DNA of 64,000 nt from Actinostola sp. cb2023. Taxonomy: Eukaryota > Cnidaria > Anthozoa > Actiniaria > Actinostolidae. Positions within the stretch are counted from its first letter, which is position 1. The number at the start of each line of letters is the position of its first letter. The stretch is from the NCBI GenBank assembly GCA_033675265.1, contig JAUJYZ010000301.1:1-64000 (forward strand), read 5' to 3'. The notes under the pieces were generated by a model, which was not told where the DNA came from, made no database searches, and was given only the letters and a program-made list of their open reading frames with translations. A program made the translations under genes and the position numbers. Positions 33,730 to 64,000 of the stretch are shown here, piece after piece.

Positions 33730-33731
33730 TA

Positions 33732-36034: not shown

Positions 36035-36139
36035 TATTTGGGATAATGGTAAAGCATTGTGTCGGTTATGTTTCCTACAATGTTATTTGTGTGACTGTAT
36101 AAATCATTGCTGATCCACTCATTTGATGTTTTATTTTAG

Positions 36140-36198: not shown

Positions 36199-36230
36199 GT
36201 TAGTAGTTATACTGTTAGCGCCACCAAATA

Positions 36231-36333: not shown

Positions 36334-36451
36334 TGGCTGTGCTAACAGTTCAGTGATTTCGGTAGTACTATAAATATGGTCAGCTGATTGATTGGTGATA
36401 GCTGGTATTCCATATTTGTAATGCTCATTAATATATGGCTTGATTTCTTAG

Positions 36452-36567
36452 GTTCATCCCTAGCCGTATGGGATCATTCTGGCAAGGAAATCATAATTTT
36501 GTACAAGAAAATAATGATCCTAGTAGCCCAAAGAGTATTACTAGGGAGACTGGGACAGACACTAAAG
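36452..36567 (+). CDS. fzr1: fizzy-related coding exon 3 (C-box)
   Basis: Acceptor TTTCTTAG before 36452, donor GTTTGT at 36568 (weaker than usual). With exon 2 it completes DRFIPSR, the C-box by which Cdh1 docks on the APC/C, followed by MGSFWQGNHNFVQEN, like the RAGANWSVNFHRINEN region of vertebrate Cdh1. The rest is a Ser/Thr-rich linker. Exit phase 1 fits exon 4. Confidence 0.92.
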
Positions 36568-36632
36568 GTTTGTAACACTGCTTAGATTAATAACCATTGA
36601 CCAATGATATTGGTGTTGTTCACAGGTTGCTA

Positions 36633-37789: not shown

Positions 37790-38242
37790 TATGATCGATC
37801 CCCAGTTCATTTCTTATTTAAAGACTCTCCATCGACCAACATGCTTTGCAGGCGTTTGTTATTGTTTTGATTGCGTTGACTTGACTCATCTTCGTCTGGA
37901 TGAAAGCTTAGTAAGCTTTGAATTCCATTACCTCTTTCTTCTGGGCGGTTAGCTGGACTGAGTTAGGAGCTGAAAAAAGCATTATTTATTGGACATTTAA
38001 TTTGAGATCGAAAATACATGTATCGCCAGAAATTCAGGGTCAGCACAGAACCAATATTACTGCAGCAAAATTTCAGCAAATTCACTATCCATCAGTTTGG
38101 AACTAACCTTGACTATTTGTTCTACTTCTCCACTGTTCTCGGAGAGATTCACTTAATAGGTATATCACTGGTCTTTTGAGCTTACCTCATGTAGGTTTGG
38201 CCGCCATCTTGACTAGATTCTAAGATAATCGGCTCTTATTAA

Positions 38243-41200: not shown

Positions 41201-42910
41201 TTTCGATTAATCGGCGGTAGGTACGTACATTAGTAAAAGTGACTAGAGCATTGACGGAACTCGAATGTTCAAAGAATAAATCGCTTATCGTTAAAATTTT
41301 ATGATTAATTTTCCATGTATTAAAATTACCAAAATAACTAAAATGGCGCGAAAATAAATGGCGCGGGGATCGATTTACGTTTCTTCGTTTCTGATAATAA
41401 TTTTTGAAATTAAATCGTTAAGTATGCAAATGTTTATATGCAAACACATTTGTTGGAATAAACATATTCGATCGATATGACTTGCAAATATTTCTTTTTA
41501 TCAACATTTACATGATTATCAGACCTGCATGTTTAGTTTGTCAGTGTAATGACAGATAAACGGAAACGTTCTTGGTAACGGCAATTAACGTAAAACCGCA
41601 GCGGAGAGAAGAGCAAATCCACGATATTTGATTTTTACGCCAAAATCGACTTAGCTTGAATTCCTGTGCTATTTTAGTGATATCGTTTACGTTTCGTGCA
41701 TTGTTCTACTCATTTGAAACAATATCTTGTAAACATGTGGCGTCCTCTAGTGGTAACATTACTGCTAGTGGTAATTCTTACCACAAAGGTCATGAGCCAT
41801 TGGTTGATTTACGGTAATGTTACTGAGGTCAAACTCGTCTCAAAATGAAAGATGCTGATTGGCTAAGAGCTGGTAATTCTTAGAGTAAGACTAGTAAGCT
41901 TTTATCTCCATATTGATTTGGTTCTCTCCATATTGCTTTTGGCCTGTGTTGACATACATTTTCTGAAAGCTGAATATATGCAGAATTCAATAAAACAATT
42001 AGTTTTTAGAACAAAAACAGTATATTTGAAATAGGTAAAAAAGTTCAGATTTTCACATCACTATCATCGCCGAGGTCCCATACAGCCGCAATTTATCGGA
42101 AATCCTCGACTAATATCTTTATAAGCTCATGAGATATAGCTTACAAAAAAGGTGTCTCCGTTTATCAATAAATTAACCCATTGCGTTTTTATACGGTCTT
42201 AAACTTCGAGCTCTGCAAAAACTGGAAAACACTTTACAAAACAAGTTATACCGGTAACTTTCGAAGGAAATTGAATATTAAAATTTGGAGACACCTTTTT
42301 GAAGACTATTTATTTGACAAAGTGTCTACCAAATTTCAGCTAAATCGAATAAAATCCCTTTGACCCGGAACTCAAAATGTGCGCTTGATTCATGGCTATT
42401 TTGTTTCTGAAATAAAGGCAAAAGAGTTTTCAAGTCAAGTGGCGCCTTTGTTTACACATGCGTCCATAATCCACCACAAGTATGTGATCCAATACCTGAT
42501 GACATACATGTATGAATGGCATTCAAAAGAAGATCGCCTTACAGTACGTAACACAACGTGGCAGGAAAACAAAGTTACTGCTGGCGGAAAATACGAGCAT
42601 TTTGACCGTGAGTGGTTTGGCATCGTTATTCAAGGATATTTTGAGTGAGCAGTTACGATTTTTGGATACTTTCTTCGCATCTGAATCTCTGTCGAAAGTC
42701 TGTTGCGTGAGTGTTGTTGACAGCTTGCTTGTCAACATCTTTTTGCATCAAATGAAACCAAAAAATTCGTTTTTTGATTCTAACTTTTTAGGGGAAAAAT
42801 ATTTTTAAATTCTGTTTTTTGGAGATGATAGATAATATTCAATTAGATTTGATTGTCAAAAAAAATTCAAAACCGGTGGTTTGAAAGGTTTTTTGGGATA
42901 CCCTGATACC
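38243..42910. mobile_element. TTAA-flanked element, 4.7 kb, Kolobok-like ends
   Basis: Ends GGTATCAGGGTACCCCAAA and GGGATACCCTGATACC. TTAA lies at 38239-38242; on the right the TTAA reads T-TA then a TA MITE then TA-A, showing that the MITE landed inside the duplicated TTAA. The uninterrupted relative at about 48592 has a single TTAA. It holds a 3.6-kb foldback and about 960 bp (41951-42910) without clear coding. No transposase. Confidence 0.85.
38328..41950. repeat. Long foldback, two 1.63-kb arms
   Basis: Arms 38328-39957 and 40324-41950 are nearly identical inverted copies around a 366-bp spacer. Ends read AACACAGGCCAAAAGCAATA. An identical 118-residue frame occurs in each arm but has no recognisable domain and is taken as chance. 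E2F-like CGCGCCATTT words occur in both arms. Confidence 0.9.
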
Positions 42911-42913
42911 TTA

Positions 42914-43193
42914 CAGCGAAAATCCTTGTATCGCGACCTTTCGTTTTGAAAACTTCAGTTGGATTTTGGGTTTTTCTGTTCCGACAATCACTATATATGT
43001 CCATTTCTTGAGTACAAAGTTAACTCAGCATAAACATCATTAATTAAAGTACTAAATAGTGACATTTCTATTGTTTTGTATTGTATTTAGTACTAATTAG
43101 TGCAAAAAATATATTATTTGGCGGAACAGAAAAACCCAAAATCCAGCTGAAGTTTATACAAAACGAAAGGTCGCGATACAAGGATTTTCGCAG
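42914..43193. mobile_element. TA-flanked MITE, 280 bp
   Basis: Ends CAGCGAAAATCCTTGTATCG and near complement with arms of about 70 bp. TA at 42912-42913 and 43194-43195 is the middle of the TTAA that bounded the older element. Confidence 0.85.
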
Positions 43194-43436
43194 TAACAGG
43201 CTGGATCTCCCACTCAAAACCATTATTTCAAACAAATAGAAGAATCAAAGCTTATAGACAATACTTTAGAGAATGTTCTTTGAGAACGAAAGTGATAAGA
43301 ACTTCACAGATGAAGTGGATTCGAAAACATTATAACTTGATACCTTCCATACCGAGAAAAGGATGAATTGCGTATCATACGAAATTACGATGAGCGCCCG
43401 CAAAGCATGTCGGTCGACGGAGAGTCTTTAATTGGT

Positions 43437-44525
43437 TAGAATGAAGTCATGTCTACTATTATAGTCTGTAGTACATGTAGGGTAGATACTCAGTGTATTG
43501 GTTCTTTGTGTTTGAATAAAGTCATGTCTACTATGATCATAGTTTGTAGTACATGTAGTGTAGATACTCAGTGTATTGGTTCTTTGTGTTAGAATAAAGT
43601 CATGTCTACTATGATCATAGTCTGTAGTACATGTAGTGTAGATACTCAGTGTATTGGTTCTTTGTGTTAGAATAAAGTCATGTCTACTATGATCATAGTC
43701 TGTAGTACATGTAGTGTAGATACTCAGTGTATTGGTTCTTTGTGTTTGAATAAAGTCATGTCTACTATGATCATAGTCTGTAGTACATGTAGGGTAGATA
43801 CTCAGTGTATTGGTTCTTTGTGTTTGAATAAAGTCATGTCTACTATGATCATAGTCTGTAGTACATGTAGGGTAGATACTCAGTGTATTGGTTCTTTGTG
43901 TTAGAATAAAGTCATGTCTACTATGATCATAGTCTGTAGTACATGTAGTGTAGATACTCAGTGTATTGGTTCTTTGTGTTTGAATAAAATCATGTCTACT
44001 ATGATCATAGTCTGTAGTGCATGTAGTGTAGATACTCAGTGTATTGGTTCTTTGTGTTAGAATAAAGTCATGTCTACTATGATCATAGTCTGTAGTACAT
44101 GTAGTGTAGATACTCAGTGTATTGGTTCTTTGTGTTTGAATAAAGTCATGTCTACTATGATCATAGTTTGTAGTACATGTAGTGTAGATACTCAGTGTAT
44201 TGGTTCTTTGTGTTAGAATAAAGTCATGTCTACTATGATCATAGTCTGTAGTACATGTAGTGTAGATACTCAGTGTATTGGTTCTTTGTGTTAGAATAAA
44301 GTCATGTCTACTATGATCATAGTCTGTAGTACATGTAGTGTAGATACTCAGTGTATTGGTTCTTTGTGTTAGAATAAAGTCATGTCTACTATGATCATAG
44401 TCTGTAGTACATGTAGTGTAGATACTCAGTGTATTGGTTCTTTGTGTTTGAATAAAGTCATGTCTACTATTTATAGTCTGTAGTATATGTGTAGGGTAGA
44501 TACAGTCATGTACTAAGTGTATTGG
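43437..44525 (+). repeat. 78-bp satellite abutting fizzy-related exon 4
   Basis: CATGTCTACT recurs at 43449, 43523 and then every 78 bp to 44459, giving 14 copies. Each unit contains TGTATTGGTTCTTTGTGTT, the same pyrimidine-rich sequence that ends in the true splice acceptor TTCTAG at 44540. Seven of thirteen internal units read GTGTTAGAAT, a potential AG acceptor; six read GTGTTTGAAT. Because 78 is a multiple of 3, a 410-residue repetitive frame exists on the minus strand, judged spurious. Confidence 0.95.
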
Positions 44526-44540
44526 TTCTTTGTGTTCTAG

Positions 44541-44605
44541 AGGGTATAGCTTATCAGTGTCTACTAAAGAATGAATTGTTAGGAGCAGGAATAGAAGATC
44601 TAAAG
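44541..44605 (+). CDS. fzr1: fizzy-related coding exon 4
   Basis: Acceptor TTTGTGTTCTAG before 44541, donor GTACAT at 44606. Encodes (E)GIAYQCLLKNELLGAGIEDLK, aligned with DGLAYSALLKNELLGAGIEKV of vertebrate Cdh1. Entry phase matches exon 3 and it exits in phase 0. Confidence 0.93.
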
Positions 44606-45726
44606 GTACATTATCAGTGAGAATACTAAGTCTTACATTAAGTCTTACAGTTGTTTTCACATTACTTTACCGCGCCATTTTGCGAAGTTGGTTGTGAAAT
44701 TCCGAAGTACGTTGTGTAGTTCGCAACTACGTTGCCAATTAGTCAATCAACTTGCGAAGTTCAATAGCTAGTTCCCAACTTGCTTGCGACAGAACTTCAG
44801 AACTTCGATCAAACACGAAGTTTGAGAATCTTGACAGAACTCGAAAATTGTACTACTATTTGCAATCAACTGTATAACGTAAACTATTTTGATGGTTGTT
44901 CGTTTCTAGTTTCAAACCGCCGCGGCAGCTTCGTTTGACATCGGATTTTCGACGTTTGACAGGTCTATTATTAGCATTTTGGCATGGGAAACTACACGTT
45001 TAGAACTTATTTCAGCTTTTAGTATTAGTCAGGGCTTGTTGTTTGATGCGCGGATGCGGAACCGCATAATTTGGCTTGCTTCGCATAATCTGGCAATTCT
45101 CGCATAATTTGGAGAAATTTGGAGAAAATCATAAAACTGGTATCTATTTTCACTATTTCTCAAAGATTCTTCACTAATTAATCAAAGTTATCAGTAGATT
45201 TCCTTCGATTCCTAGATTCCTAAATCGTCGAAATGTACGATTCACACTGGAATGACAAGCCGTTCTATGTTAAAAACCGTGGGGGCTAGTCTCCTCCGCA
45301 GGCAACGCCGAAAAGCGAGGCCGAAGGCCGAGAATGGGATCCCTGTGCGAGGCCGAAGGCCGAGAGGGACTGAGCCCCTAGGAAAGAAAAGAAGGAGTTG
45401 CCTGCCAAATCCAGACAAGGTTATGTCTTTCTGCGCAAGTGACCATGTGCATGTAAATCCAATTCGTGTAGGGGACAGTGGGGGAATTGTGTGCGATAAA
45501 AATGATTATTACCAGGACGTGAATGTTTGTCAACGTCTAGTGACAGCATATTGATTCAAGCACTCGAACTCACCAAAAACTCATCCAGATTTCTTCCTCT
45601 GGTCCAGAAAACTCCAATAATTTCGGAGCTTCTAGTTTCGAAGCTGACCTAATTTTTTTTGAGATCTTTAACTGGTCTACATTCCATCGAGCAAGAGTTC
45701 AACGGTCGAAGTTTGTACGGATGTCC

Positions 45727-47269
45727 CAGTGATTGGGAAGGCTGAAAACAGTGGTGGGCCAATGGCCCATCAATTGCTACATTTATGGGCCATAAATTTT
45801 CTAAAGGGGCCATCACTCAAAAATAATGGGCCATTTTAGTGTTGATATTTAACCCTTTGACTCCCACAGCGCCCGAAACCGCCCGTAAAAATCGATACTG
45901 CTTTGAAAAATTCTAACTTTCTGAATTTTCGTAACATCGATCTCATACAGTTATTAGTGACAGCTAGATAACTCTTCATATTTTAACCTCAAGTAAACTG
46001 ACTTACAGGTCCGATTTCTGGGCATTAGTTCAATTTGTTTGCCATAAAAATCAAAAATGCGTGTTTTTGACGCAATTTTACACCTCGAAAATGAACGACA
46101 TTTGACTTGGATTTTCTTCCAAAATACATCCTTGCGAAACAAAACGCCACTTTCTCAGCAAACTTCCATCTCTCTTCTTGATATAGTCGTGAATTTTGCC
46201 CTCTCTTTTCCTTAACTCGCCGAACAATAGCCATTTCCTTAGGCCCACTTTCGCTAACACGTGTTTTCCTTCTGCACGCCCGAAAAGGATGCCGGGAAAC
46301 ATCCGGGAATTTCGGCATAGATCTCCCCCGAAAATCCCTCTTTTAAGAATATATAGAGTGTCGAGCCACTCGGTCCTACAGGCAAAATATTGCACCAGTT
46401 GCATTCTTTACAAGTCCAAAGTCGCCAAAAATGCCTTTGTAGGTCCTGGAATCCACCACAGAAAGACCAGAGAGACGATTTCACAATTGAGTCCGCCATT
46501 TTGAATTTCCAAACGGCAAAGTCGAAATCTGTTCGTGAATTCGTATCTAAACTCCTGAGTTCTTCCAGGAGAACGGTCTCTACCACACCAGTCAAGCTTA
46601 ATGATGCTGTCCTGGGGGCTTCTGTGGTGAATAATGGCTATAAACACTCTAAAAATGCAAAATTGACCGCTCCTAGTAGCTACGAGATGCCGTTCCTCGA
46701 GGAGATTCACCAAAAGAGAAAGATTACGTCAGAACCTGAGCCCGTGGGCTTTCAGAACTGTCAAGATTTCCATGGAAACCCCTTATATGGAATCGAAATT
46801 TCCTATGGCGTGATTAGGTCCAGAAAATTGCTAAAAAACTCAAAAATCTCTGGGTGTCAAAGGGTTAATTAGTCTTATTATGCACAATCGCGCGCGCTCT
46901 TAAAACCGCAAGTCAAAATGGCCAAAAAACATTTTTTTCAAAATAGTATCCATGTTTTCCTTTTTTGATATCTAAAATAGCTTTCTGAACATGTTTTCGA
47001 TTTTCAACTGCTTTTTGATGTTGAAAAACGCAAAAAGCAGCGGTTTTTAAAGAAACGAACTCTCATTATAGTACCCAGTCTCCCCTGGGAATTCAAAATG
47101 GCGGCCAAATTTTCGATTTTTACGGCAAAATATCTCCGAAACGAAGAAGTGGACCCACTTTTTTTTGAAATTGTAATGCGCCCCTAAGGCCCCAAAGAAA
47201 ATATTTTTTTGCGCCGTACGATCTAAAAACGTGCCAATGGCGCATGGCGCACGTCCTTCCCTATCACTG
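45727..47269. mobile_element. hAT-like element, 1543 bp, 6-bp TSD
   Basis: Ends CAGTGATTGGGAAGG and CCTTCCCTATCACTG, flanked by ATGTCC (45721-45726, 47270-47275). Interior words include GGGCCAT repeats. It hosts a TTAA element. Confidence 0.8.
45853..46864. mobile_element. piggyBac-like MITE, 1012 bp
   Basis: TTAA-CCCTTTGACTCCCA at the left and TGGGTGTCAAAGGG-TTAA at the right (TTAA 45849-45852 and 46865-46868). CCC-starting ends and TTAA targets match piggyBac. The 160-residue frame at 46390-46872 has no transposase features. Confidence 0.85.
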
Positions 47270-48354
47270 ATGTCCGGCAGCCGATCAGGGTTTTGAAAAT
47301 CTAGATGTTCAGCAGTCGATTTTTATGTATTTAATTTGAAGCTTAAGCATAAGCAAATTTAACCGATTCAAACTACGATACCCTAGCTTTGTTTGGGCTT
47401 CGAAAATATACCTTTGTGACGGAACTTCATCACAGTTCAAATCAGCACAACATGGCACACATTGTGAACTGCCGAATATACTACAGTAGAGTGTTCGGCA
47501 GTTGATTTTGAAGCGTAAGCAATTAATTAAACCGATTCACAAACTATCCTAGCTTTCAATATGTTGTTGTACGTAGGTGCCACGTTATAATAAGATACGT
47601 ATCTTTATTATATCCTAGCTTTGTTTGGGCTACGATAATACCGCCGTATACCTCAGTTGTGACCGGCGCCTTGTGACGGCACATTTTACATCGCGAATTT
47701 AACCGATTCAAACTATTCTAGCTTTGTTTGGTCTTCGAAATACCTTGTGACAAGCGCCATAGAGTTTGAATTTCGAAAATATCAAATCAACACAACACAT
47801 AATTTGCCTTAGGGGACTATACCTGTTATATCCAATGTGACAAATACCCCCCAGGGGACCTGGGGTGACGGACAAAGTCCATCAGGTCCAGGACGCGGTC
47901 CATGTATGTCTGGATTTGGCAGGCAACTCCTTCTTTTCTTTCCTAGGGGCCCAGTCCCTCTCGTCCTTCGGCCTCGCACAGGGATCCCATTCTTGGCCTT
48001 GCTTTCCGGCGTTGCCTGCGGAGGAGGCTATGTGGGGGCCTGTTGTCTAAATTTCGTGTTTATGTTTTCCCGGAAAAACAAGCTGAATTATTTTCAGATC
48101 GAGTTCCTCCATAGCATTTTGCGAGTTCAATTATGGTTTAAAAACATGGATAATTATGTTGTAAAAGAATCAACAGAGGAAATTAGATGGAAATGAAATG
48201 TCACGAAGCGATATAAAATGTTTCAGCTCGACCGAATAAATCATTACCCACATGCAATCTTGTACGGAATACTTTATAGGTTCAGTTGAAGTTTAATGTA
48301 GACTTTCTAGTACATAGATTTGAAAATTTGAGATAATCAACCATTTCTCTTTAA

Positions 48355-49013
48355 AGACTCTTCGTCGACCGACATGCTTTGCGGGCGCTCATCGTAATTT
48401 CGTATGATACGCAATATCCTTTTCGCGGTATGGAAGGTATCAAGTTATAATCTGTTCGAATCCTCTTCATCTGTGAAGTTCTTATCACTTTCGTTCTCCG
48501 AGAACATTCTCTAAAGTATCGTCTAAGTTTTGATTACCGTATTCTATTTGTTTGAAATAATGGTTTTGAGTGTCCCGAGATCCAGCCTGTTAATAAGAGC
48601 CGATTATCTTAGAATCTAGTCAAGATGGCGGCCAAACCTACAAGATGAGGTAGGCTCAAAAGACCTGTGATGGTATACCTAAGGGAATCTCTCCGAGAAC
48701 AGTGGAGAAGTAGAACAAATAGTCAAGGTTAGTTCCAAACTGACGGATAGTAAATTTGCTGAAATTTTGCTGCAGTAATATTGGTTCTGTGCTGACCCTG
48801 AATTTCTGGCGATACATGTATTTTCGATCTCAAATTAAATGTCCAATAAATAATGCTTTTTTCAGCTCCTCACTCAGTCCAGCTAACCGCCCAGAAGAAA
48901 GAGGTAATGGAATTCAAAGCTTACTAAGCTTTCATCCAGACGAAGATGAGTCAAGTCAACGCAATCGAAACAATAACAAATGCCTGCAAAGCATGTCAGT
49001 CGACGGAGAGTCT
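48355..49013. mobile_element. TTAA MITE copy 2, intact, 659 bp
   Basis: Ends AGACTCTTCGTCGACCGACA and near complement, TTAA on both sides (48351-48354, 49014-49017). It is the uninterrupted, inverted sister of 37822-43427 and so defines what was inserted there. Confidence 0.9.
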
Positions 49014-49407
49014 TTAATACTGATCAACAACCAGCTTTTTATTTCGGGCCTTATCGCGTTTCTGAGGATATGCAAATTACCGTGAGAACGGCTCTCTCTG
49101 ATTGGTCGGAAACAGCCCTTATAATCTTTACAATCAAATTGAAGAAATCGTTCATTTCAAGTTTCAATTCAGTTTCAAAAGGACAGGAACGAAGCATGCA
49201 AGAGAAATTGTCTCTAATTTGAAGCAATATAAGCTTGTTTGAAGTGAAACACGATAAAACAATTTTATTTCTGCTTTACAATGTATGACGTCATCCCGCA
49301 TAATTTCCTGCATAATTCGCGATTTTTCCCACATAATTCGCCAAAATATCCCGCATAATTTTGATTTTTTTTTTTCCCGCATCCTACCATAAGCCATGAT
49401 TAGTGTA

Positions 49408-49896
49408 CAGTGAACTCTCTCTAAGACGGACACCCTCGGGACCAGCACCAACTGTCCATCTTAGAGAGGTGTCCGTCTTATGGAGAGTTTATGCAATTTG
49501 ACACCATTAACTAAAGCAACATAGAGGTACAAGTCAAAGCTGACAGACAATTTTTTACTCAAGCAGTCAATGGGACAAGAACATTTTTGCGTGCAATTCT
49601 AGATATTAAAAGTAGTTTACATTTACTGTATGACACGCTATACGTGATCTGTTTGTTTTCTGTCATTACTTTTAGTATCAAACATCCGACTAGTGTCCGT
49701 CTTACAGGGAGTTTTTTTACCTATTTTTATCCAAAATTAATTTAAAAAGAGTCCGGTGTCCGTCTTAGAGAGGTGTCCGTCTTATAGAGGGTTTAGATAC
49801 AGTGAAAGAACGGGTTTTCGGCAGGGACCAGCAAATGGTGTCCGTTATAGAGAGGTGTCCGTTTTATTGAGGTGTCCATTAGGAGAGAGTTCACTG
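49408..49896. mobile_element. TA-flanked MITE with GTGTCCGTCTTA repeats, 489 bp
   Basis: Ends CAGTGAACTCTCTCTAAGAC and GAGAGAGTTCACTG, TA at 49406-49407 and 49897-49898. The word AGAGAGGTGTCCGTCTTA recurs through it. Confidence 0.85.
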
Positions 49897-49945
49897 TATT
49901 CCTAATTGTACTAAATGTCAAATTTTCGAGTTCTGTCAACATAGT

Positions 49946-50386
49946 AGGGCCTCTGATATGGTGCGGGGGGAAACGGAAATTGTGCGGAAAAACCACGGAA
50001 ATTGTGCGGAAAATTATGTGATTTTTCCAATGGTTAATTTAGCCTTTTTATAAAGGAATGTAATATTATTTTGTTTATTATAAAATGCTCTTTCTTTTTA
50101 AGCATATTTATGATTCAGTCAAAAAAAAAAAATCGGCCTTTTCTCGGACAATTTTTCCCTGCGCCATTTTATAACTCGGTCATTCCACAGGAAGCCCAAA
50201 TAACTAGTGCCAGGCCTCCAAGACAATCTATGCATAGAACGCCTGGTACATTCTAGTACGTACGTTGTTTGATTCATTACACATCTCGAACGTGTTGTAG
50301 AGGGTTTCTAAGGTGTTTTCAAAGGAAAATCACGATTTGAGGGCCAAATGTGCGAAATCGCACCATCGCGTAATATCAGAGGCCCT
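49946..50386. mobile_element. hAT-like MITE, 441 bp
   Basis: Ends AGGGCCTCTGATAT and complement. A degenerate 8-bp duplication (AACATAGT, GGCATACT) is possible. It interrupts the inverted end of the TA element at 44648-50577. Confidence 0.65.
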
Positions 50387-50642
50387 GGCATACTGAAACC
50401 TCGTGTTGGATCGAAGTTCTGAACTTCGTTCGGGAGCAAGTTGGGAACTAGGATTTGAACTTCGCAAGTTGATTGACTAATTGGCAACGTACATGTAGTT
50501 GCAAACTTCGCAACGTACTTCGGAATTTGATAACCAACTTCGCAACATGGCACGGTAACCATTTGTGAAAACGACTGTAATGTACAAAATTTATATCTAT
50601 TGCATAATTGATTGATAAAACATGTGTTTTTGTGATGACCAG

Positions 50643-50708
50643 GACTATCAAACTGAGGATCGCAAAGTACTTTCCAGCAATAGTAATTATGTTCATAATG
50701 TATTTCAG
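50643..50708 (+). CDS. fzr1: fizzy-related coding exon 5
   Basis: Acceptor GATGACCAG before 50643 (weak pyrimidine tract), donor GTGAGT at 50709. Encodes DYQTEDRKVLSSNSNYVHNV and two more residues, in line with DPQTEDRRLQPSTPEKKG of vertebrate Cdh1, just before the linker to the WD40 domain. Both ends are phase 0. An identical copy lies inverted at 63700-63765. Confidence 0.88.
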
Positions 50709-50720
50709 GTGAGTTATAAT

Positions 50721-51030
50721 AATAATAATGATAATAATAATAATAATGATAATAACTTTATTTGAGTGCCTAGTCCTCTATCAGAGCAGAAGTGCTCCAC
50801 TAATCGGGGACACTTGGTAGTATACATGTAGGTCAGGCCACACACTCTGAGAACTTTGTGCCCTACCTAATATTTGAACAGTGGTGTGGGTTCTTTTACA
50901 TCCCTCCGGTGCATTGTAATGGAGTGTGGAGATATGGGACCACCATTTTACATGATCATCCGAGCCACCTGAAGGTCTAACCATTTGTAGATGTAATTAC
51001 AATGGATGGCGGTCTCAGTATTGTGACATT
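50721..51030 (-). repeat. (AAT)n tail plus dispersed SINE-like repeat
   Basis: An ATAATAATAATG run is followed by a non-coding block (AGTGCCTAGTCCTCTATCAG..TGTGGGTTCTTTTACATCCC). The A/T tail and the lack of inverted ends suggest a retroposed repeat on the minus strand. Its mirror is at 63370-63690. Confidence 0.5.
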
Positions 51031-51632
51031 AGACGAATGAATCAGTCATCAATAAGCAACAATACCAAATGAATCAATCATCAATAAGCAACAATACCAA
51101 ATGAATCAATCATCAATAAGCAACAATACCAAATGAATCAATCATCAATAAGCAACAATACCAAATGAATCAATCATCAATAAGCAACAATACCAAATGA
51201 ATCAGTCATCAATAAGCAACAATACCAAATGAATCAGTCATCAATAAGCAACAATACCAAATGAATCAGTCATCAATAAGCAACAATACCAAATGAATCA
51301 GTCATCAATAAGCAACAATACCAAATGAATCAGTCATCAATAAGCAACAATACCAAATGAATCAGTCATCAATAAGCAACAATACCAAATGAATCAGTCA
51401 TCAATAAGCAACAATACCAAATGAATCAATCATCAATAAGCAACAATACCAAATGAATCAGTCATCAATAAGCAACAATACCAAATGAATCAGTCATCAA
51501 TAAGCAACAATACCAAATGAATCAGTCATCAATAAGCAACAATACCAAATGAATCAATAAGCAACAATACCAAATGAATCAGTCATCAATAAGCAACAAT
51601 ACCAAATGAATCAATAAGCAACAATACCAGAG
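51031..51632 (+). repeat. 32-bp satellite, about 19 copies
   Basis: Unit AATCAATCATCAATAAGCAA plus CAATACCAAATG, alternating CAATCATC and CAGTCATC; two units near the end lack the CAGTCATC part. Intronic, after exon 5. Confidence 0.95.
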
Positions 51633-51925
51633 ATTTTGTTTGCCAAGCTGTCCACGTATTCTTCGTGTGAAGTCTCAAGTTCAACAAAACGAGTTTCAGT
51701 CATAATTGTTATCCTTTGAGAGATAGAAAAGCTTTGAAATCTATTTCAATCACAACACTAAATGAGTCAGCTTCTTGTCGCTAAAAAAGCCAATTGAAAG
51801 CTAGAGGAAAACTTCATGTGGCTTCTGATTGGACATATCATTTTTGTCACACATGATCATGAAGAAACGATACGCGGCATCTGCTTGGCTAGCAATAGTG
51901 AGCGTACGACAATTTACTACACAGA

Positions 51926-52477
51926 GGGTGTGTTTTCACTGGGACAATTTAGACTAGTTTAACTCGGAAACTCCGGAATTACAGTGAAAACAGCCTAGAA
52001 AAAGTTAAGCAAGTTAAAAATGCAGAGTGTTTTCACTTAGAAAAAACGGAAATCACACCAAAGTTAGTTTCCTTAGCAAGATGGTTTAACTTGTCCAAGT
52101 AAACACAGCAGCCACTCACAGGCCAACCGGTTGACAGATATCTGTCAGTTTATTTTTGTAATCTCTCGTAGCACACAACAGACGTTCGTAAAGGACTATC
52201 AAAAAGATCGAAATAGCAGGGTTTTGAAGAAATTCCCTTCGTTTTTGAAATAAAATACTGTAACCTGACTAACAATTAAGAGTAGCGATGTAAAGACAAG
52301 CGTTTTCTCTCCGGGCATTTCTTCGAAGAGACCGTTTGTAATCAGATATGTTCTTCATAACGTTACAAAAAGTTCTCAGTGAAAACAGTCAGCAAATTAT
52401 ACTAGTCTAAAGTTAGTCTGCAAGCAAACACCTAAAGGAATTTTAGGCAACCTAAAATGCGTAGTGAAAACACAGCC
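51926..52477. mobile_element. MITE with GGGTGTGTTTTCACT ends, 552 bp
   Basis: Ends GGGTGTGTTTTCACT and AGTGAAAACACAGCC, with AGA on each side (3-bp duplication possible). The words CAGTGAAAAC and TTAGACTAG recur inside. A PIF/Harbinger-type or hAT-type assignment is open. Confidence 0.7.
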
Positions 52478-52480
52478 AGA

Positions 52481-53330
52481 ATCTATGTATGTAAACAATT
52501 CCTAATGAATTCTAAAACTCAACTTAAATAACTTTTGTTGGCTTGACAACTTTTACATCAGGGCCATTTAGAATTGAACCACAAGTACATGTAGATACAC
52601 GTCGTTTGTTTTGCCTAAGTTCCCAACATTGTTTGAACGTTTGCAGAACATTGTACTGTGAGAACTTACAATTGAACTGTTTACACACCAAAATGTTAAA
52701 ACTAAGCAAAGGAGGTCAAAGCTTTAAAAGCAGTCGTCCTTTGTGTATATATATTATTAAGATATTCATGGGAGAGCAACAATTTCAAAAATATCATTAT
52801 TGATGAAATTGTTGTTCTTGGTGCCACCAGACATTGAGGTGCATAGTGTGAAATACATGGCAATCAAAAGACCAAGGCCGCTGCAGAAGGAAATCCTTGT
52901 AATATCTTTCTGCAAAAGAATCTCAAAGCTAATTGAATGAGCAGCTCCCAACTATCGGCTGTTTTGTCCCTTCAACAACATTTATATTTTTCATATTCAA
53001 CTGCACTATTATTGGTGAATATGTCTCTATGTCGGTCTAAGTTAGTTGTCGATATCAACTGACAATGCCTTAAAATTGCTCTTACCAGTTTGGAACATGA
53101 AAAATCTGATTACTGTATTCACCGGCGAATAAGCCACACTTTTTTTTCTGAAAATTGCGATCCAAAGTTGGGGGTGCGGCTTAACTTGGAGAACATTGGG
53201 AATTGGTACCAGAAATTCACATATAATTAACATAAAAGAATAATAAACACAACATTTGTGTGTATAACTATTACTATTAGTTACCCCTAAAAACATTGAC
53301 CATTTGGTTAGATGTTAAACAGGCAAATTA
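52481..53330. other. Intronic sequence, no gene seen
   Basis: Contains a small hairpin around 52780-52815 (CAACAATTTCA / TGAAATTGTTG) and a CACCGGCGAATAAGCC stretch near 53120 that resembles a MITE end. Short frames are mirrored in the right arm and have no domain. Confidence 0.5.
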
Positions 53331-56300
53331 ACGGATGTTGTTTATTGTGTATTGTAGTACCAAGTAACTAACCTTTGATTGTTGTTTATTGTGTATTGTA
53401 GTACCAAGTAACTAACCTTTGATTGTTGTTTATGGTGTATTGTAGTACCAAGTAACTAACCTTTGATTGTTGTTTATTGTGTATTGTAGTACCAAGTAAC
53501 TAACCTTTGATTGTTGTTTATTGTGTATTGTAGTACCAAGTAACTAACCTTTGATTGTTGTTTATTGTGTATTGTAGTACCAAGTAACTAACCTTTGATT
53601 GTTGTTTATTGTGTATTGTAGTACCAAGTAACTAACCTTTGATTGTTGTTTATTGTGTATTGTAGTACCAAGTAACTAACCTTTGATTGTTGTTTATTGT
53701 GTATTGTAGTACCAAGTAACTAACCTTTGATTGTTGTTTATTGTGTATTGTAGTACCAAGTAACTAACCTTTGATTGTTGTTTATTGTGTATTGTAGTAC
53801 CAAGTAACTAACCTTTGATTGTTGTTTATGGTGTATTGTAGTACCAAGTAACTAACCTTTGATTGTTGTTTATTGTGTATTGTAGTACCAAGTAACTAAC
53901 CTTTGATTGTTGTTTATTGTGTATTGTAGTACCAAGTAACTAACCTTTGATTGTTGTTTATTGTGTATTGTAGTACCAAGTAACTAACCTTGGATTGTTG
54001 TTTATTGTGTATTGTAGTACCAAGTAACTAACCTTTGATTGTTGTTTATTGTGTATTGTAGTACCAAGTAACTAACCTTCGATTGTTGTTTATTGTGTAT
54101 TGTAGTACCAAGTAACTAACCTTCGATTGTTGTTTATTGTGTATTGTAGTACCAAGTAACTAACCTTTGATTGTTGTTTATTGTGTATTGTAGTACCAAG
54201 TAACTAACCTTTGATTGTTGTTTATTGTGTATTGTAGTACCAAGTAACTAACCTTTGATTGTTGTTTATTGTGTATTGTAGTACCAAGTAACTAACCTTT
54301 GATTGTTGTTTATTGTGTATTGTAGTACCAAGTAACTAACCTTTGATTGTTGTTTATTGTGTATTGTAGTACCAAGTAACTAACCTTTGATTGTTGTTTA
54401 TTGTGTATTGTAGTACCAAGTAACTAACCTTGGATTGTTGTTTATTGTGTATTGTAGTACCAAGTAACTAACCTTTGATTGTTGTTTATTGTGTATTGTA
54501 GTACCAAGTAACTAACCTTTGATTGTTGTTTATTGTGTATTGTAGTACCAAGTAACTAACCTTTGATTGTTGTTTATTGTGTATTGTAGTACCAAGTAAC
54601 TAACCTTTGATTGTTGTTTATTGTGTATTGTAGTACCAAGTAACTAACCTTTGATTGTTGTTTATTGTGTATTGTAGTACCAAGTAACTAACCTTGGATT
54701 GTTGTTTATTGTGTATTGTAGTACCAAGTAACTAACCTTTGATTGTTGTTTATTGTGTATTGTAGTACCAAGTAACTAACCTTGGATTGTTGTTTATTGT
54801 GTATTGTAGTACCAAGTAACTAACCTTTGATTGTTGTTTATTGTGTATTGTAGTACCAAGTAACTAACCTTTGATTGTTGTTTATTGTGTATTGTAGTAC
54901 CAAGTAACTAACCTTTGATTGTTGTTTATTGTGTATTGTAGTACCAAGTAACTAACCTTTGATTGTTGTTTATTGTGTATTGTAGTACCAAGTAACTAAC
55001 CTTTGATTGTTGTTTATTGTGTATTGTAGTACCAAGTAACTAACCTTTGATTGTTGTTTATTGTGTATTGTAGTACCAAGTAACTAACCTTGGATTGTTG
55101 TTTATTGTGTATTGTAGTACCAAGTAACTAACCTTTGATTGTTGTTTATTGTGTATTGTAGTACCAAGTAACTAACCTTTGATTGTTGTTTATTGTGTAT
55201 TGTAGTACCAAGTAACTAACCTTTGATTGTTGTTTATTGTGTATTGTAGTACCAAGTAACTAACCTTTGATTGTTGTTTATTGTGTATTGTAGTACCAAG
55301 TAACTAACCTTTGATTGTTGTTTATTGTGTATTGTAGTACCAAGTAACTAACCTTTGATTGTTGTTTATTGTGTATTGTAGTACCAAGTAACTAACCTTT
55401 GATTGTTGTTTATTGTGTATTGTAGTACCAAGTAACTAACCTTTGATTGTTGTTTATTGTGTATTGTAGTACCAAGTAACTAACCTTTGATTGTTGTTTA
55501 TTGTGTATTGTAGTACCAAGTAACTAACCTTTGATTGTTGTTTATTGTGTATTGTAGTACCAAGTAACTAACCTTTGATTGTTGTTTATTGTGTATTGTA
55601 GTACCAAGTAACTAACCTTTGATTGTTGTTTATTGTGTATTGTAGTACCAAGTAACTAACCTTGGATTGTTGTTTATTGTGTATTGTAGTACCAAGTAAC
55701 TAACCTTTGATTGTTGTTTATTGTGTATTGTAGTACCAAGTAACTAACCTTTGATTGTTGTTTATTGTGTATTGTAGTACCAAGTAACTAACCTTGGATT
55801 GTTGTTTATTGTGTATTGTAGTACCAAGTAACTAACCTTGGATTGTTGTTTATTGTGTATTGTAGTACCAAGTAACTAACCTTTGATTGTTGTTTATTGT
55901 GTATTGTAGTACCAAGTAACTAACCTTTGATTGTTGTTTATTGTGTATTGTAGTACCAAGTAACTAACCTTTGATTGTTGTTTATTGTGTATTGTAGTAC
56001 CAAGTAACTAACCTTTGATTGTTGTTTATTGTGTATTGTAGTACCAAGTAACTAACCTTCGATTGTTGTTTATTGTGTATTGTAGTACCAAGTAACTAAC
56101 CTTTGATTGTTGTTTATTGTGTATTGTAGTACCAAGTAACTAACCTTTGATTGTTGTTTATTGTGTATTGTAGTACCAAGTAACTAACCTTTGATTGTTG
56201 TTTATTGTGTATTGTAGTACCAAGTAACTAACCTTGGATTGTTGTTTATTGTGTATTGTAGTACCAAGTAACTAACCTTTGATTGTTGTTTATTGTGTAT

Positions 56301-56535
56301 TGTAGTACCAAGTAACTAACCTTTGATTGTTGTTTATTGTGTATTGTAGTACCAAGTAACTAACCTTTGATTGTTGTTTATTGTGTATTGTAGTACCAAG
56401 TAACTAACCTTTGATTGTTGTTTATTGTGTATTGTAGTACCAAGTAACTAACCTTTGATTGTTGTTTATTGTGTATTGTAGTACCAAGTAACTAACCTTT
56501 GATTGTTGTTTATTGTGTATTGTAGTACCAAGTAA
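53331..56535 (+). repeat. 44-bp satellite, about 73 copies (left arm)
   Basis: Unit TTGTAGTACCAAGTAACTAA plus the remaining 24 bases of CCTTTGATTG..GTGTA type. Period is exactly 44 with only point variants (TTTGATT / TTGGATT / TTCGATT; one TTTATGG form near each end) and essentially no indels. Confidence 0.95.
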
Positions 56536-56776
56536 GAAGAAGTCATAAAGAAGAAGCACAATCATCTGCTGCTTATTCATTATCACCAGTGGGAAAGAAA
56601 AGGTACAATAAGTAGCCTAGTATGTAGTTCTCACTACATGAAAGTAGCCATCTGTTCTGGCAAGAACATTTCCTTTTGTGTTTTGAACAACTACATGTAC
56701 TATGCAAAATAATGTCATTAATTAAGAGGACAGACGCATAAAAAAGTGATGTCAATTTTTTTTACAATAGCAAATA

Positions 56777-56974
56777 TTATTCAAACATGTTTACACACCA
56801 TCTTGTATTTTCTCTTACGAAATTCTTGACTATTTCGAGCAGTTCGTAGTCATTTAGTGTCTCAAAGCAAACGCTATCATTTACTTTCTGTTCGGACTCA
56901 ACTTCCTCCAGAGACAAGCAGAGTTTTTCATCTGAAATTTCCTCAAGAAAGTCTACTTGGAACGAATCGTCCAT
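56777..56974 (-). CDS. Small acidic open frame, unknown function
   Basis: 65 codons from an ATG at 56974: MDDSFQVDFLEEISDEKLC, then an acidic stretch and ENTRWCVNMFE at the end. The last block faintly recalls the N-terminal domain of Crypton/KIAA1958-type tyrosine recombinases (NT..W...F), where the protein would continue, but it stops. The palindromic copy (about 57445-57655) is frameshifted. It may be a gene fragment carried by an element or chance. Confidence 0.25.
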   Translation of the reverse strand: MDDSFQVDFLEEISDEKLCLSLEEVESEQKVNDSVCFETLNDYELLEIVKNFVRENTRWCVNMFE

Positions 56975-57147
56975 TGATGAATTTTTCTCCGTCAATCTTC
57001 AGCTTTGTACGCACCATTTTGTTATTATTGTAAGTTATAGTGAGAACGCTCTTGTTCAAAGTTTTGGGCCAGCTGTTTAAATAACCCTACACATTACGCC
57101 TACAAAATGGTAGTTCTGGACCCAGAGATATCTTGTACAGGGTCCGG

Positions 57148-57274
57148 TTGTTCGAAAGCGGGTTAGCACTAACCTGGGGTTAAATATGGCTAACCTAGGG
57201 TAAAATCTTAAGATTTACCCTAGGTTAGCGATATTTAACCCCAGGTTAGCGTTAACCCGCTTTCGAACAACCGG
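57148..57274. repeat. Near-perfect hairpin at the centre of the giant palindrome
   Basis: CCGGTTGTTCGAAAGCGGGT (57149) pairs with the complement ending at 57274; the axis lies at CTTAAG near 57210. Words GGGTTAGC and CTAACCTGGGGTTAAAT flank it. It looks like a complete small palindromic MITE. Confidence 0.9.
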
Positions 57275-57896
57275 AAAAAAAAAAAAAAAAAAAACCCTGT
57301 ACAAGATATCTCTGGGTCCAGAACTACCATTTTGTAGGCGTAATGTGTAGGGTTATTTAAACAGCTGGCCCAAAACTTTGAACAAGAGCGTTCTCACTAT
57401 AACTTACAATAATAAACAAAATGGTGCGTACAAAGCTGAAGATTGACGGAGAAAAATTCATCATGGACGATTCGTTCCAAGTAGACTTTCTTGAGGAAAT
57501 TTCAGATGAAAAACTCTGCTTGTCTCTGAGAGGAAGTTTGAGTCCGAACAGAAGTAAATGATAGCGTTTGCTTTGAGACACTAAATGACTACGAACTGCT
57601 CGAAATAGTCAGAATTCGTAAGAGAAATACAAGATGGTGTGTAAACATGTTTGAATAATATTTGCTATTGTAAAAAAAATTGACATCACTTTTTTATGCG
57701 TCTGTCCTCTTAATTAATGACATTATTTTGCATAGTACATGTAGTTGTTCAAAACACAAGGGAAATGTTCTTGCCAGAAACAGATGGCTACTTTCATGTA
57801 GTGAGAACTACATACTAGGCTACTTATTGTACCTTTTCTTTCCCACTGGTGATAATGAATAAGCAGCAGATGATTGTGCTTCTTCTTTATGACTTC

Positions 57897-60800
57897 TCTT
57901 ACTTGGTACTACCAATACACAAATAAACAACAATCAAAGGTTAGTTACTTGGTACTACAATACACAATAAACAACAATCAAAGGTTAGTTACTTGGTACT
58001 ACAATACACAATAAACAACAATCAAAGGTTAGTTACTTGGTACTACAATACACAATAAACAACAATCAAAGGTTAGTTTACTTGGTACTACAATACACAA
58101 TAAACAACAATCAAGGTTAGTTACTTGGTACTACAATACACAATAAACAACAATCAAAGGTTAGTTACTTGGTACTACAATACACAATAAACAACAATCC
58201 AAGGTTAGTTACTTGGTACTACAATACACAATAAACAACAATCAAAGGTTAGTTACTTGGTACTACAATACACAATAAACAACAATCAAAGGTTAGTTAC
58301 TTGGTACTACAATACACAATAAACAACAATCAAGGTTAGTTACTTTGGTACTACAATACACAATAAACAACATCGAAGGTTAGTTACTTGGTACTACAAT
58401 ACACAATAAACACAATCAAAGGTTAGTTACTTGGTTACTACAATACACAATAAACAACAATCAAAGGTTAGTTACTTGGTACTACAATACACAATAAACA
58501 ACAATCAAAGGTTAGTTACTTGGTACTACAATACACAATAAAACAACAATCAAAGGTTAGTTACTTGGTACTACAATACACAATAAACAACAATCCAAGG
58601 TTAGTTACTTGGTACTACAATACACAATAACAAACAATCCAAGGTTAGTTACTTGGTACTACAATACACAATAAACAACAATCAAGGTTAGTTACTTGGT
58701 ACTACAATACACAATAAACAACAATCAAAGGTTAGTTACTTGTACTACAATACACAATAAACACAACATCCAAGGTTAGTTACTTGGTACTACAATACAC
58801 AATAAACAACAATCAAAGGTTAGTTACTTGGTACTACAATACACAATAAACAACAATCAAAGGTTGAGTTACTTGGTACTACAATACACAATAAACAACA
58901 ATCAAAGGTTAGTTACTTGGGTACTACAATACACAATAAACAACAATCAAAGGTTAGTTACTTGGTACTACAATACACAATAAACAACAATCAAAGGTTA
59001 GTTACTTGGTACTACAATACACAATAAACAACAATCAAAGGTTAGTTACTTGGTACTACAATACACATAAACAACAATCAAGGTTAGTTACTTGGTACTA
59101 CAATACACAATAAACAACAATCAAAGGTTAGTTACTTGGTACTACAATACACAATAAACAACAATCAAAGGTTAGTTACTTGGTACTACAATACACAATA
59201 AACAACAATCAAAGGTTAGTTACTTGGTACTACAATACACAATAAACAACAATCAAAGGTTAGTTACTTGGTACTACAATACACAATAAACAACAATCAA
59301 AGGTTAGTTTTACTTGGTACTACAATACACAATAAACAACAATCCAAGGTTAGTTTACTTGGTACTACAATACACAATAAACAACAATCAAAGGTTAGTT
59401 ACTTGGTACTACAATACACAATAAACAACAATCAAAGGTTAGTTACTTGGTACTACAATACACATAAACAACAATCAAAGGTTAGTTACTTGGTACTACA
59501 ATACACAATAAACAACAATCAAAGGTTAGTTACTTGGTACTACAATACACAATAAACAACAATCAAAGGTTAGTTACTTGGTACTACAATACACATAAAC
59601 AACAATCAAATGTTAGTTACTTGGTACTACAATACACAATAAACAACAATCCAAGGTTAGTTACTTGGTACTACAATACACATAAACAACAATCAAAGGT
59701 TAGTTACTTGGTACTACAATACACAATAAACAACAATCCAAGGTTAGTTACTTGGTACTACAATACACAATAAACAACAATCAAAGGTTAGTTTACTTGG
59801 TACTACAATACACAATAAACAACAATCAAAGGTTAGTTACTTGGTACTACAATACACAATAAACAACAATCAAAGGTTAGTTACTTGGTACTACAATACA
59901 CAATAAACAACAATCAAAGGTTAGTTACTTGGTACTACAATACACAATAAACAACAATCAAAGGTTAGTTACTTGGTACTACAATACACAATAAACAACA
60001 ATCCAAGGTTAGTTACTTGGTACTACAATACACAATAAACAACAATCAAAGGTTAGTTACTTGGTACTACAATACACAATAAACAACAATCAAGGTTAGT
60101 TACTTGGTACTACAATACACAATAAACAACAATCAAAGGTTAGTTACTTGGTACTACAATACACAATAAACAACAATCAAAGGTTAGTTACTTGGTACTA
60201 CAATACACAATAAACAACAATCAAAGGTTAGTTACTTGGTACTACAATACACAATAAACAACAATCAAAGGTTAGTTACTTGGTACTACAATACACAATA
60301 AACAACAATCGAAGGTTAGTTACTTGGTACTACAATACACAATAAACAACAATCGAAGGTTAGTTACTTGGTACTACAATACACAATAAAACAACAATCA
60401 AAGGTTAGTTTACTTGGTACTACAATACACAATAAACAACAATCCAAGGTTAGTTACTTGGTACTACAATACACAATAAACAACAATCAAAGGTTAGTTA
60501 CTTGGTACTACAATACACAATAAACAACAATCAAAGGTTAGTTTTTACTTGGTACTACAATACACAATAAACAACAATCAAAGGTTAGTTACTTGGTACT
60601 ACAATACACCATAAACACAATCAAAGGTTAGTTACTTGGTACTACAATACACAATAACAACAATCAAAGGTTAGTTACTTGGTACTACAATACACAATAA
60701 ACAACAATCAAAGGTTAGTTACTTGGTACTACAATACACAATAAACAACAATCAAAGGTTAGTTTACTTGGTACTACAATACACAATAAACAACAATCAA

Positions 60801-61105
60801 AGGTTAGTTACTTGGTACTACAATACACAATAAACAACAATCAAAGGTTAGTTACTTGGTACTACAATACACAATAAACAACAATCAAAGGTTAGTTACT
60901 TGGTACTACAATACACAATAAAACAACAATCAAAGGTTAGTTACTTGGTACTACAATACACAATAAACAACAATCAAAGGTTAGTTACTTGGTACTACAA
61001 TACACCATAAACAACAATCAAAGGTTAGTTACTTGGTACTACAATACACAATAAACAACAATCAAAGGTTAGTTACTTGGTACTACAATACACAATAAAC
61101 AACAT
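57897..61105 (-). repeat. 44-bp satellite, right arm, indel-rich
   Basis: Reverse complement of 53331-56535, about 73 units. Unlike the left array, many units lose or gain one base (e.g. CACATAAAC, AGTTTACTT, CTTGGGTAC). Confidence 0.95.
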
Positions 61106-62811
61106 CCGTTAATTTGCCTGTTTTAACATCTAACCAAATGGTCAATGTTTTTAGGGGTAACTAAATAGTAATAGTTATACACACAAATGTTGTGTTTATT
61201 ATTCTTTTATGTTAATTATATGTGAATTTCTGGTACCAATTCCCAATGTTCTCCAAGTTAAGCCGCACCCCCAACTTTGGATCGCAATTTTCAGAAAAAA
61301 AAGTGTGGCTTATTCGCCGGTGAATACAGTAATCAGATTTTTCATGTTCCAAACTGGTAAGAGCAATTTTAAGGCATTGTCAGTTGATATCGACAACTAA
61401 CTTAGACCGACATAGAGACATATTCACCAATAATAGTGCAGTTTGAATATGAAAAATATAAATGTTGTTGAAGGGACAAAACAGCCGATAGTTGGAGCTG
61501 CTCATTCAATTAGCTTTGAGATTCTTTTGCAGAAAGATATTACAAGGATTTCCTTCTGCAGCGGCCTTGGTCTTTTGATTGCCATGTATTTCACACTATG
61601 CACCTCAATGTCTGGTGGCACCAAGAAACAACAATTTCATCAATAATGATATTTTTGAAATTGTTGCTCTCCCATGAATATCTTAATAATATATATACAC
61701 AAAGGACGACTGCTTTTAAAGCTTTGACCTCCTTTGCTTAGTTTTAACATTTTGGTGTGTAAACAGTTCAATTGTAAGTTCTCACAGTACAATGTTCTGC
61801 AAACGTTCAAACAATGTTGGGAACTTAGGCAAAACAAACGACGTGTATCTACATGTACTTGTGGTTCAATTCTAAATGGCCCTGATGTAAAAGTTGTCAA
61901 GCCAACAAAAGTTATTTAAGTTGAGTTTTAGAATTCATTAGGAATTGTTTACATACATAGATTCTGGCTGTGTTTTCACTACGCATTTTAGGTTGCCTAA
62001 AATTCCTTTAGGTGTTTGCTTGCAGACTAACTTTAGACTAGTATAATTTGCTGACTGTTTTCACTGAGAACTTTTTGTAACGTTATGAAGAACATATCTG
62101 ATTACAAACGGTCTCTTCGAAGAAATGCCCGGAGAGAAAACGCTTGTCTTTACATCGCTACTCTTAATTGTTAGTCAGGTTACAGTATTTTATTTCAAAA
62201 ACGAAGGGAATTTCTTCAAAACCCTGCTATTTCGATCTTTTTGATAGTCCTTTACGAACGTCTGTTGTGTGCTACGAGAGATTACAAAAATAAACTGACA
62301 GATATCTGTCAACCGGTTGGCCTGTGAGTGGCTGCTGTGTTTACTTGGACAAGTTAAACCATCTTGCTAAGGAAACTAACTTTGGTGTGATTTCCGTTTT
62401 TTCTAAGTGAAAACACTCTGCATTTTTAACTTGCTTAACTTTTTCTAGGCTGTTTTCACTGTAATTCCGGAGTTTCCGAGTTAAACTAGTCTAAATTGTC
62501 CCAGTGAAAACACACCCTCTGTGTAGTAAATTGTCGTACGCTCACTATTGCTAGCCAAGCAGATGCCGCGTATCGTTTCTTCATGATCATGTGTGACAAA
62601 AATGATATGTCCAATCAGAAGCCACATGAAGTTTTCCTCTAGCTTTCAATTGGCTTTTTTAGCGACAAGAAGCTGACTCATTTAGTGTTGTGATTGAAAT
62701 AGATTTCAAAGCTTTTCTATCTCTCAAAGGATAACAATTATGACTGAAACTCGTTTTGTTGAACTTGAGACTTCACACGAAGAATACGTGGACAGCTTGG
62801 CAAACAAATCT

Positions 62812-63375
62812 CTGGTATTGTTGCTTATTGATTCATTTGGTATTGTTGCTTATTGATGACTGATTCATTTGGTATTGTTGCTTATTGATTCATTTTGGTA
62901 TTGTTGCTTATTGATGACTGATTCATTTGGTATTGTTGCTTATTGATGACTGATTCATTTGGTATTGTTGCTTATTGATGACTGATTCATTTGGTATTGT
63001 TGCTTATTGATGATTGATTCATTTGGTATTGTTGCTTATTGATGACTGATTCATTTGGTATTGTTGCTTATTGATGACTGATTCATTTGGTATTGTTGCT
63101 TATTGATGACTGATTCATTTGGTATTGTTGCTTATTGATGACTGATTCATTTGGTATTGTTGCTTATTGATGACTGATTCATTTGGTATTGTTGCTTATT
63201 GATGACTGATTCATTTGGTATTGTTGCTTATTGATGACTGATTCATTTGGTATTGTTGCTTATTGATGATTGATTCATTTGGTATTGTTGCTTATTGATG
63301 ATTGATTCATTTGGTGTTGCTTATTGATGATTGATTCATTTGGTATTGTTGCTTATTGATGACTGATTCATTCGT
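62812..63375 (-). repeat. 32-bp satellite, right arm
   Basis: Reverse complement of 51031-51632, with about one unit fewer and small indels (e.g. a TTTT at about 62894, a shortened unit at about 63311). Confidence 0.95.
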
Positions 63376-63699
63376 CTAATGTCACAATACTGAGACCGCC
63401 ATCCATTGTAATTACATCTACAAATGGTTAGACCTTCAGGTGGCTCGGATGATCATGTAAAATGGTGGTCCCATATCTCCACACTCCATTACAATGCACC
63501 GGAGGGATGTAAAAGAACCCACACCACTGTTCAAATATTAGGTAGGGCACAAAGTTCTCAGAGTGTGTGGCCTGACCTACATGTATACTACCAAGTGTCC
63601 CCGATTAGTGGAGCACTTCTGCTCTGATAGAGGACTAGGCACTCAAATAAAGTTATTATCATTATTATTATTATTATCATTATTATTATTATAACTCAC

Positions 63700-63765
63700 C
63701 TGAAATACATTATGAACATAATTACTATTGCTGGAAAGTACTTTGCGATCCTCAGTTTGATAGTC
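63700..63765 (-). pseudogene. fzr1: Inverted copy of fizzy-related exon 5
   Basis: All 66 bases equal the reverse complement of 50643-50708, with the same donor and acceptor. It cannot follow exon 5 in a normal transcript because it lies on the opposite strand. It is either an assembly artefact or the end of a real inverted duplication. Confidence 0.9.
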
Positions 63766-64000
63766 CTGGTCATCACAAAAAACACATGTTTTATCAATCA
63801 ATTATGCAATAGATATAAATTTTGTACATTACAGTCGTTTTCACAAATGGTTACCGTGCCATGTTGCGAAGTTGGTTATCAAATTCCGAAGTACGTTGCG
63901 AAGTTTGCAACTACATGTACGTTGCCAATTAGTCAATCAACTTGCGAAGTTCAAATCCTAGTTCCCAACTTGCTCCCGAACGAAGTTCAGAACTTCGATC

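Follow-up and report, generated by a model that had tools for sequence, protein, structure and literature searches.

Does the palindrome that closes this contig stretch belong to the animal's chromosome, or did it arise while the contig was being made? The window, by which we mean the whole 64,000-nucleotide stretch that was analysed, ends in 13.6 kb of sequence whose two halves are inverted copies of each other. If the palindrome were an artefact, this assembly of an animal genome would have a false end here, with the fizzy-related gene (FZR/Cdh1) looking cut and the downstream chromosome hidden, and two satellite arrays and two FZR exons would look duplicated. We therefore examined how the two arms differ, which of them carries the differences, and what lies at the point where the sequence turns back.

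Extent of the palindrome and the differences between its arms

Comparison of the window with itself produced a single main inverted match, between 50409-63372 and 64000-51068, and at the sequence level the palindrome divides into a left arm at 50409-57204 and a right arm at 57205-64000. The initial annotation had described a 13.6-kb palindrome at 50411..64000 with its centre at 57210. The self-match confirms the palindrome and moves its left boundary to 50409, an outer border fixed solely by the end of the window at 64000, which lies inside the right arm. The centre is now placed not at one position but at a turn formed by a hairpin and a run of A, with the copy starting at the foot of the hairpin, which divides the structure into the following features:

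50409..57143, plus strand: left arm, holding FZR exons 5 and 6 and the 32-bp and 44-bp arrays (inverted self-match)
57144..57274, no strand assigned: imperfect palindromic hairpin with a stem of ~60 bp, MITE-like by form only (DNA folding)
57275..57294, plus strand: run of 20 A at the right foot of the hairpin (alignment and sequence)
57295..64000, minus strand: right arm, repeating the left arm in inverted orientation with many indels (self-match, global alignment and the frameshifted copy of exon 6)

The arms were aligned globally, with 50409-57204 as the left input and 57214-64000 as the right. They matched in 6731 of 6847 columns, and relative to the left arm the right arm carried 29 insertions, 26 deletions and 5 substitutions. 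The central hairpin or its edge held three of the five substitutions, together with a 19-base A/T insertion, and the arms outside the hairpin differed by 54 indels and 2 substitutions in ~6.7 kb. BLAST, which scores alignments differently and counted every difference in the palindrome twice, gave 22 mismatches and 105 gap openings, at an arm identity of 98.4%. Nearly all single-base indels in the arm alignment (48 of 50) altered a run of at least two equal bases; ~52% of the bases of the left arm sit in such runs. Leftover single-base indels in a poorly covered arm would suit the PacBio type of error.

As controls, we used the inverted-repeat pairs of the window that do not belong to the palindrome, are 93% or more identical and are 150 bp or longer. 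Five pairs were obtained, three of which are pieces of a single repeat (10346-13586). When these were aligned in the same way as the palindrome arms, they showed 48 substitutions and 15 gaps, and the contrast in indels to substitutions between the palindrome (54:2) and the controls (15:48) gave a Fisher p of 2e-17. The BLAST counts for the five pairs (52 mismatches, 12 gap openings) point the same way, with the palindrome indel-heavy and the controls substitution-heavy. The window's other copies diverge chiefly by substitutions and the arms of the palindrome chiefly by indels. The earlier expectation that a real inverted duplication should show mainly substitutions is upheld by the five pairs, and this pattern of natural change, expected of a genomic palindrome, was absent from the ~6.7 kb outside the hairpin.

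These counts bear on two ways in which the palindrome could be real. The first is an old inverted duplication with arms homogenised by gene conversion, which would be in line with the high BLAST identity of the arms but would predict mainly substitutions, in both arms, as seen in the window's other inverted repeats. We rejected it on the ratio of indels to substitutions, and regard it as extremely improbable. The second is a real palindrome of very recent germline or somatic origin, perhaps present in one haplotype, that was born at the hairpin, truncates one FZR allele and has one unpolished arm. Against it stands the scarcity of substitutions when the arms are aligned outside the hairpin, although few might have accumulated in a palindrome so recent. 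Near-identical arms are hard to polish, and poor polishing would equally hit the second arm if the palindrome were real, a point that speaks against the artefact. We consider a young palindrome unlikely.

Array register and reading frame in the two arms

Two independent yardsticks were used to assign indels to an arm, namely the 44-bp array's own register and the reading frame of the conserved exon 6 of FZR. The array occurs in both arms:

53336..56535, plus strand: 44-bp tandem array of the left arm, 72.7 copies (Tandem Repeats Finder)
57899..61104, minus strand: right-arm copy of the 44-bp array, with indels (Tandem Repeats Finder and unit pairing)

When the left array was cut mechanically every 44 bp, it stayed in register over 72 units, 58 of them identical and the other 14 each with a single altered base. 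Tandem Repeats Finder reported an indel rate of 0% on the left and of 2% on the right. Units were then paired between the arms, a procedure that fixes the left lengths at 44 by construction, so that the register rests on the mechanical cut and on Tandem Repeats Finder. The 44-bp length was kept in 46 of the 72 right-arm partner units, the rest being 42, 43, 45, 46 or 47 bp long, and 43 of the 72 pairs were identical. In all 14 variant units the variant base was retained in the right arm, in agreement with the earlier remark that the arms are alike down to rare satellite variants. Since the left array is in register and 14 of 14 variants are kept, the two 44-bp arrays are one array, and the irregularities are on the right side. 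The 32-bp array had 18.3 copies on the left and 17.3 on the right (Tandem Repeats Finder), with a gap of 35 bases in the arm alignment; the right arm's deficit of about one unit could be genuine or an error, and real arrays change likewise.

The second yardstick was provided by tblastn with the fizzy-related protein homolog of the sea anemone Actinia tenebrosa (query P0121), which gave six matches, collinear on the plus strand and all before the fold. In the numbering of the A. tenebrosa protein they are:

32671..56602, plus strand: FZR/Cdh1 exons 1-6, residues 1-152 of 488 (tblastn)
from 32671, plus strand: residues 1-20 (tblastn)
from 36140, plus strand: residues 21-45, the exon itself at about 36158-36199 (tblastn)
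from 36450, plus strand: residues 43-83 (tblastn)
from 44540, plus strand: residues 84-105 (tblastn)
from 50634, plus strand: residues 103-127 (tblastn)
from 56508, plus strand: residues 122-152, with exon 6 from 56526 (tblastn)
56526..56602, plus strand: exon 6, left copy, with an open frame (tblastn and translation)
57833..57908, minus strand: exon 6, right-arm copy, with a one-base frameshift (alignment and translation)

The left copy of exon 6 aligns in frame with the query (YQVRRSHKEEAQSSAAYSLSPVGKK), and the right-arm copy, in which one base is missing, loses the frame after YQVR. On its minus strand the left arm also has a 65-aa open frame, which is broken in the right arm. The indels of the 44-bp array, of FZR exon 6 and of this one small open frame belong to the right arm, an assignment that is limited to these three elements and covers a minority of the non-array indels. 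The initial annotation had reported single-base, mostly homopolymer indels in the right arm only. The homopolymer character stands, as does the right-sided position in the array, the exon and the small frame; the remaining indels fall outside the assignment, and the density of indels was found to be uneven. Unique sequence on the outer side had 7 indels over 2333 bp, and that on the inner side 11 over 607 bp (p 2e-4); the 44-bp array had 11 in its outer half and 23 in its inner half (p 0.06). Indel density thus climbs toward the centre of the palindrome, which a single evenly noisy read would not predict. Our guess is that the outer part was perhaps mended by reads common to both arms.

The WD40 part of FZR (residues 153-488) was not found in the window by tblastn with the same query. 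At E values up to 5, this part gave solely three weak matches (0.64 to 2.4). One lies upstream, in minus orientation; the other two are the arm copies of one stop-containing stretch. The gene, as mapped by the six collinear matches, ends at the fold, at residue 152 of 488. An earlier description had it cut after exon 5, where WD40 exons are expected; the lack of a WD40 part after the fold agrees with this, and the number of exons preceding the fold is corrected from five to six. Relatives of FZR occur across animals (protein search, 290 matches), and no Actinostola FZR protein was among the named matches listed (120 of 290). A real young palindrome would sever this widely occurring gene ahead of its WD40 part, which counts further against that reading.

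The central hairpin and the origin of the turn

When folded as single-stranded DNA, the segment 57137-57305 had a predicted energy of -71.8 kcal/mol, against a mean of -17.5 for 200 shuffles (z -17.6). Substitutions numbered 3 in the 61 aligned columns of the hairpin and 2 in the 6735 columns elsewhere (Fisher p 7e-6; the test was picked post hoc, with the data in view). The data suggest a hairpin of native DNA in both its halves, with a copy that starts only beyond it; the hairpin is probably a native genomic element. Opposite the 20 A, the left side has a single T at 57143, and in the predicted fold 19 A bulge out and the last A pairs with this T. Plain copying of the left flank gives no explanation for 20 A against one T. 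We infer that the hairpin and the predicted A bulge would correspond to a 3' end that turned back on itself and then primed on, or was joined to, its own complement.

The native right flank of the hairpin, and hence any target-site duplication, is hidden, because the A run and then the folded-back copy adjoin it. Within the window, a 20-base hairpin pattern with up to 3 mismatches found no copies beyond the hairpin's own two halves, and a 20-base pattern had 0 exact matches in viral contigs, a set from which records near the window's genome may be excluded. A 13-base sequence from the hairpin end had no match in the searched literature texts, and an Rfam scan of the window at gathering thresholds was negative.

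Sequencing artefacts of related form have been described. Passages of the Breakinator paper report fold-back reads at consistent rates for nanopore data and, in K562 samples, homopolymer A and AC repeat as the commonest sequences between the fold-back halves (PMC12870357). The present locus resembles the reads described in those passages in that its two halves map to one place on opposite strands, no more than 200 bp apart at the turn, the left flank stopping at 57143 and the copy beyond the hairpin and the A run starting at 57295, and in that homopolymer A lies between the halves (PMC12870357). The differences are of the sequencing-error type, at 54 indels to 2 substitutions, and those of the array and of exon 6 are assigned to the right half. 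Unlike those reads, the structure is here in an assembled contig and not in a single read, and the same passages mention virtually no fold-back reads in the PacBio HiFi data examined, which counts against the artefact (PMC12870357). Excerpts of the Pacasus paper give palindromes in 0.5% of reads of non-amplified PacBio controls, ascribed by its authors to false positives and to missed or missing adapters (PMC6218980). The locus is like the palindromic PacBio reads that these excerpts attribute to SMRTbell adapter loss or whole-genome amplification, with their long palindromes and inverted duplications in assemblies, and unlike them in that the turn coincides with a genomic hairpin (PMC6218980). 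The published Actinostola sp. genome, whose assembly may differ from that of the window, is described in parts of its report as based on PacBio reads from a 20-kb insert library plus Illumina reads, with LoRDEC correction, DBG2OLC assembly, and polishing by Racon and Pilon (PMC10803348).

The hairpin also provides the best argument for a young palindrome in the chromosome. In this scheme a broken end folds at the hairpin, is sealed and is then copied, and the central hairpin is what a hairpin-capped break would leave. Inverted repeats have been described as setting off rearrangement (PMC10164571), and the locus shares with in vivo inverted-repeat rearrangement and inverted amplification a palindrome centred on an inverted repeat (PMC10164571, PMC4689423). 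Such rearrangement would not by itself give the one-armed, indel-dominated pattern seen here.

A bioinformatic misjoin was also considered, in which the end of the contig was joined to an unpolished reverse copy of itself and no fold-back molecule existed. The hairpin is itself an inverted repeat, and assemblers can turn back at inverted repeats. Nevertheless, the 20 A between the hairpin and the copy suggest a physical molecule, and the ~60-bp stem offers a short overlap; we judge a misjoin very unlikely.

The reading we favour is an assembly artefact that arose at a genomic hairpin, with a fold-back read built into the contig and barely polished, and we assign it a probability of roughly 0.92. 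It is favoured because the differences are dominated by indels, because two independent yardsticks assign indels to the right arm, because the turn lies at a strong hairpin and because the gene is cut, and on the same evidence the initial annotation's view of the right arm as an unpolished fold-back read is supported. The palindrome is almost certainly not a real genomic feature.

In the fold-back reading, the left arm is taken as true genomic sequence, and the true locus would consist of the left arm, then the hairpin at 57144-57274, perhaps the A run, and then further real DNA, in which the FZR WD40 exons would be expected. During library preparation or sequencing, one strand would have folded at the hairpin and been copied or joined into its own complement, giving a read that runs backward over the left arm. 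The assembler would then have extended the contig with this read, and the left arm would have been corrected by other reads, with the right arm retaining most of the fold-back read's indels. Three points are inferred: that the folding took place in a read and not in the chromosome, how the turn came about chemically, and that polishing was missing.

An artefact of this kind may be recognised without reads, as an array and a conserved exon present in both arms reveal which copy bears the errors. As the turn sits at a genomic hairpin, elements of this sort may be hotspots of fold-back joins, and these could be counted in read sets.

Outside the palindrome, a Gypsy-type polyprotein frame of 907 aa at 3798-6521 points to a host that is probably a sea anemone close or equal to Actinostola sp. 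cb2023, as far as a single transposon protein can tell. It shares 97% identity across 79% of its length with a protein from that species, and it has Pfam reverse transcriptase, RNase H and integrase domains.

Tandem arrays beside FZR splice acceptors

Two tandem arrays adjoin exons of the fizzy-related gene (FZR/Cdh1):

53336-56535, 44-bp tandem array, reaching into FZR exon 6, which starts at 56526
43435-44503, 78-bp tandem array of 13.7 copies, ending just before FZR exon 4 (44540)

Each consensus unit of the 44-bp array contains TATTGTAG followed by TACCAAGTAA, which together copy the exon 6 splice acceptor along with the bases that open that exon. Judged from its sequence, the 44-bp array looks like exon 6's own 3' splice site, tandemly copied ∼73 times. 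The 78-bp array is a second one adjoining a splice acceptor within this gene, and the end of its unit shares TATTGGTTCTTTGT with the stretch preceding exon 4.

Gypsy-type and possible DIRS-like sequences

19746-20693, minus strand, long open frame
20686-21771, minus strand, long open frame
2304-6734, Gypsy-type element whose open frames lie at 2423-6521

Of the two minus-strand frames, the first resembles a tyrosine recombinase and the second a reverse transcriptase/RNase H, so that the pair (19746-21771) looks DIRS-like. A Pfam search of the putative recombinase frame gave no match at E 0.001. For the Gypsy-type element, the Pfam scan covered the third open frame only. Its open frames are flanked by two identical 127-bp direct repeats (2304-2430 and 6608-6734), an arrangement suggesting that the element inserted recently and that its terminal repeats are very short.

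Inverted repeats

Between the arms of the terminal palindrome (50409-57142 vs 57295-64000), indel density is about 2-3.5 per kb in the outermost part and climbs to 18 per kb beside the central hairpin. Another inverted repeat lies between FZR exons 3 and 4:

38328-41950, inverted repeat, arms of 1.63 kb, spacer of ∼360 bp

Its arms are 99% identical, with 7 substitutions and 4 gaps (9 and 2, respectively, as counted by BLAST), and this repeat looks natural.
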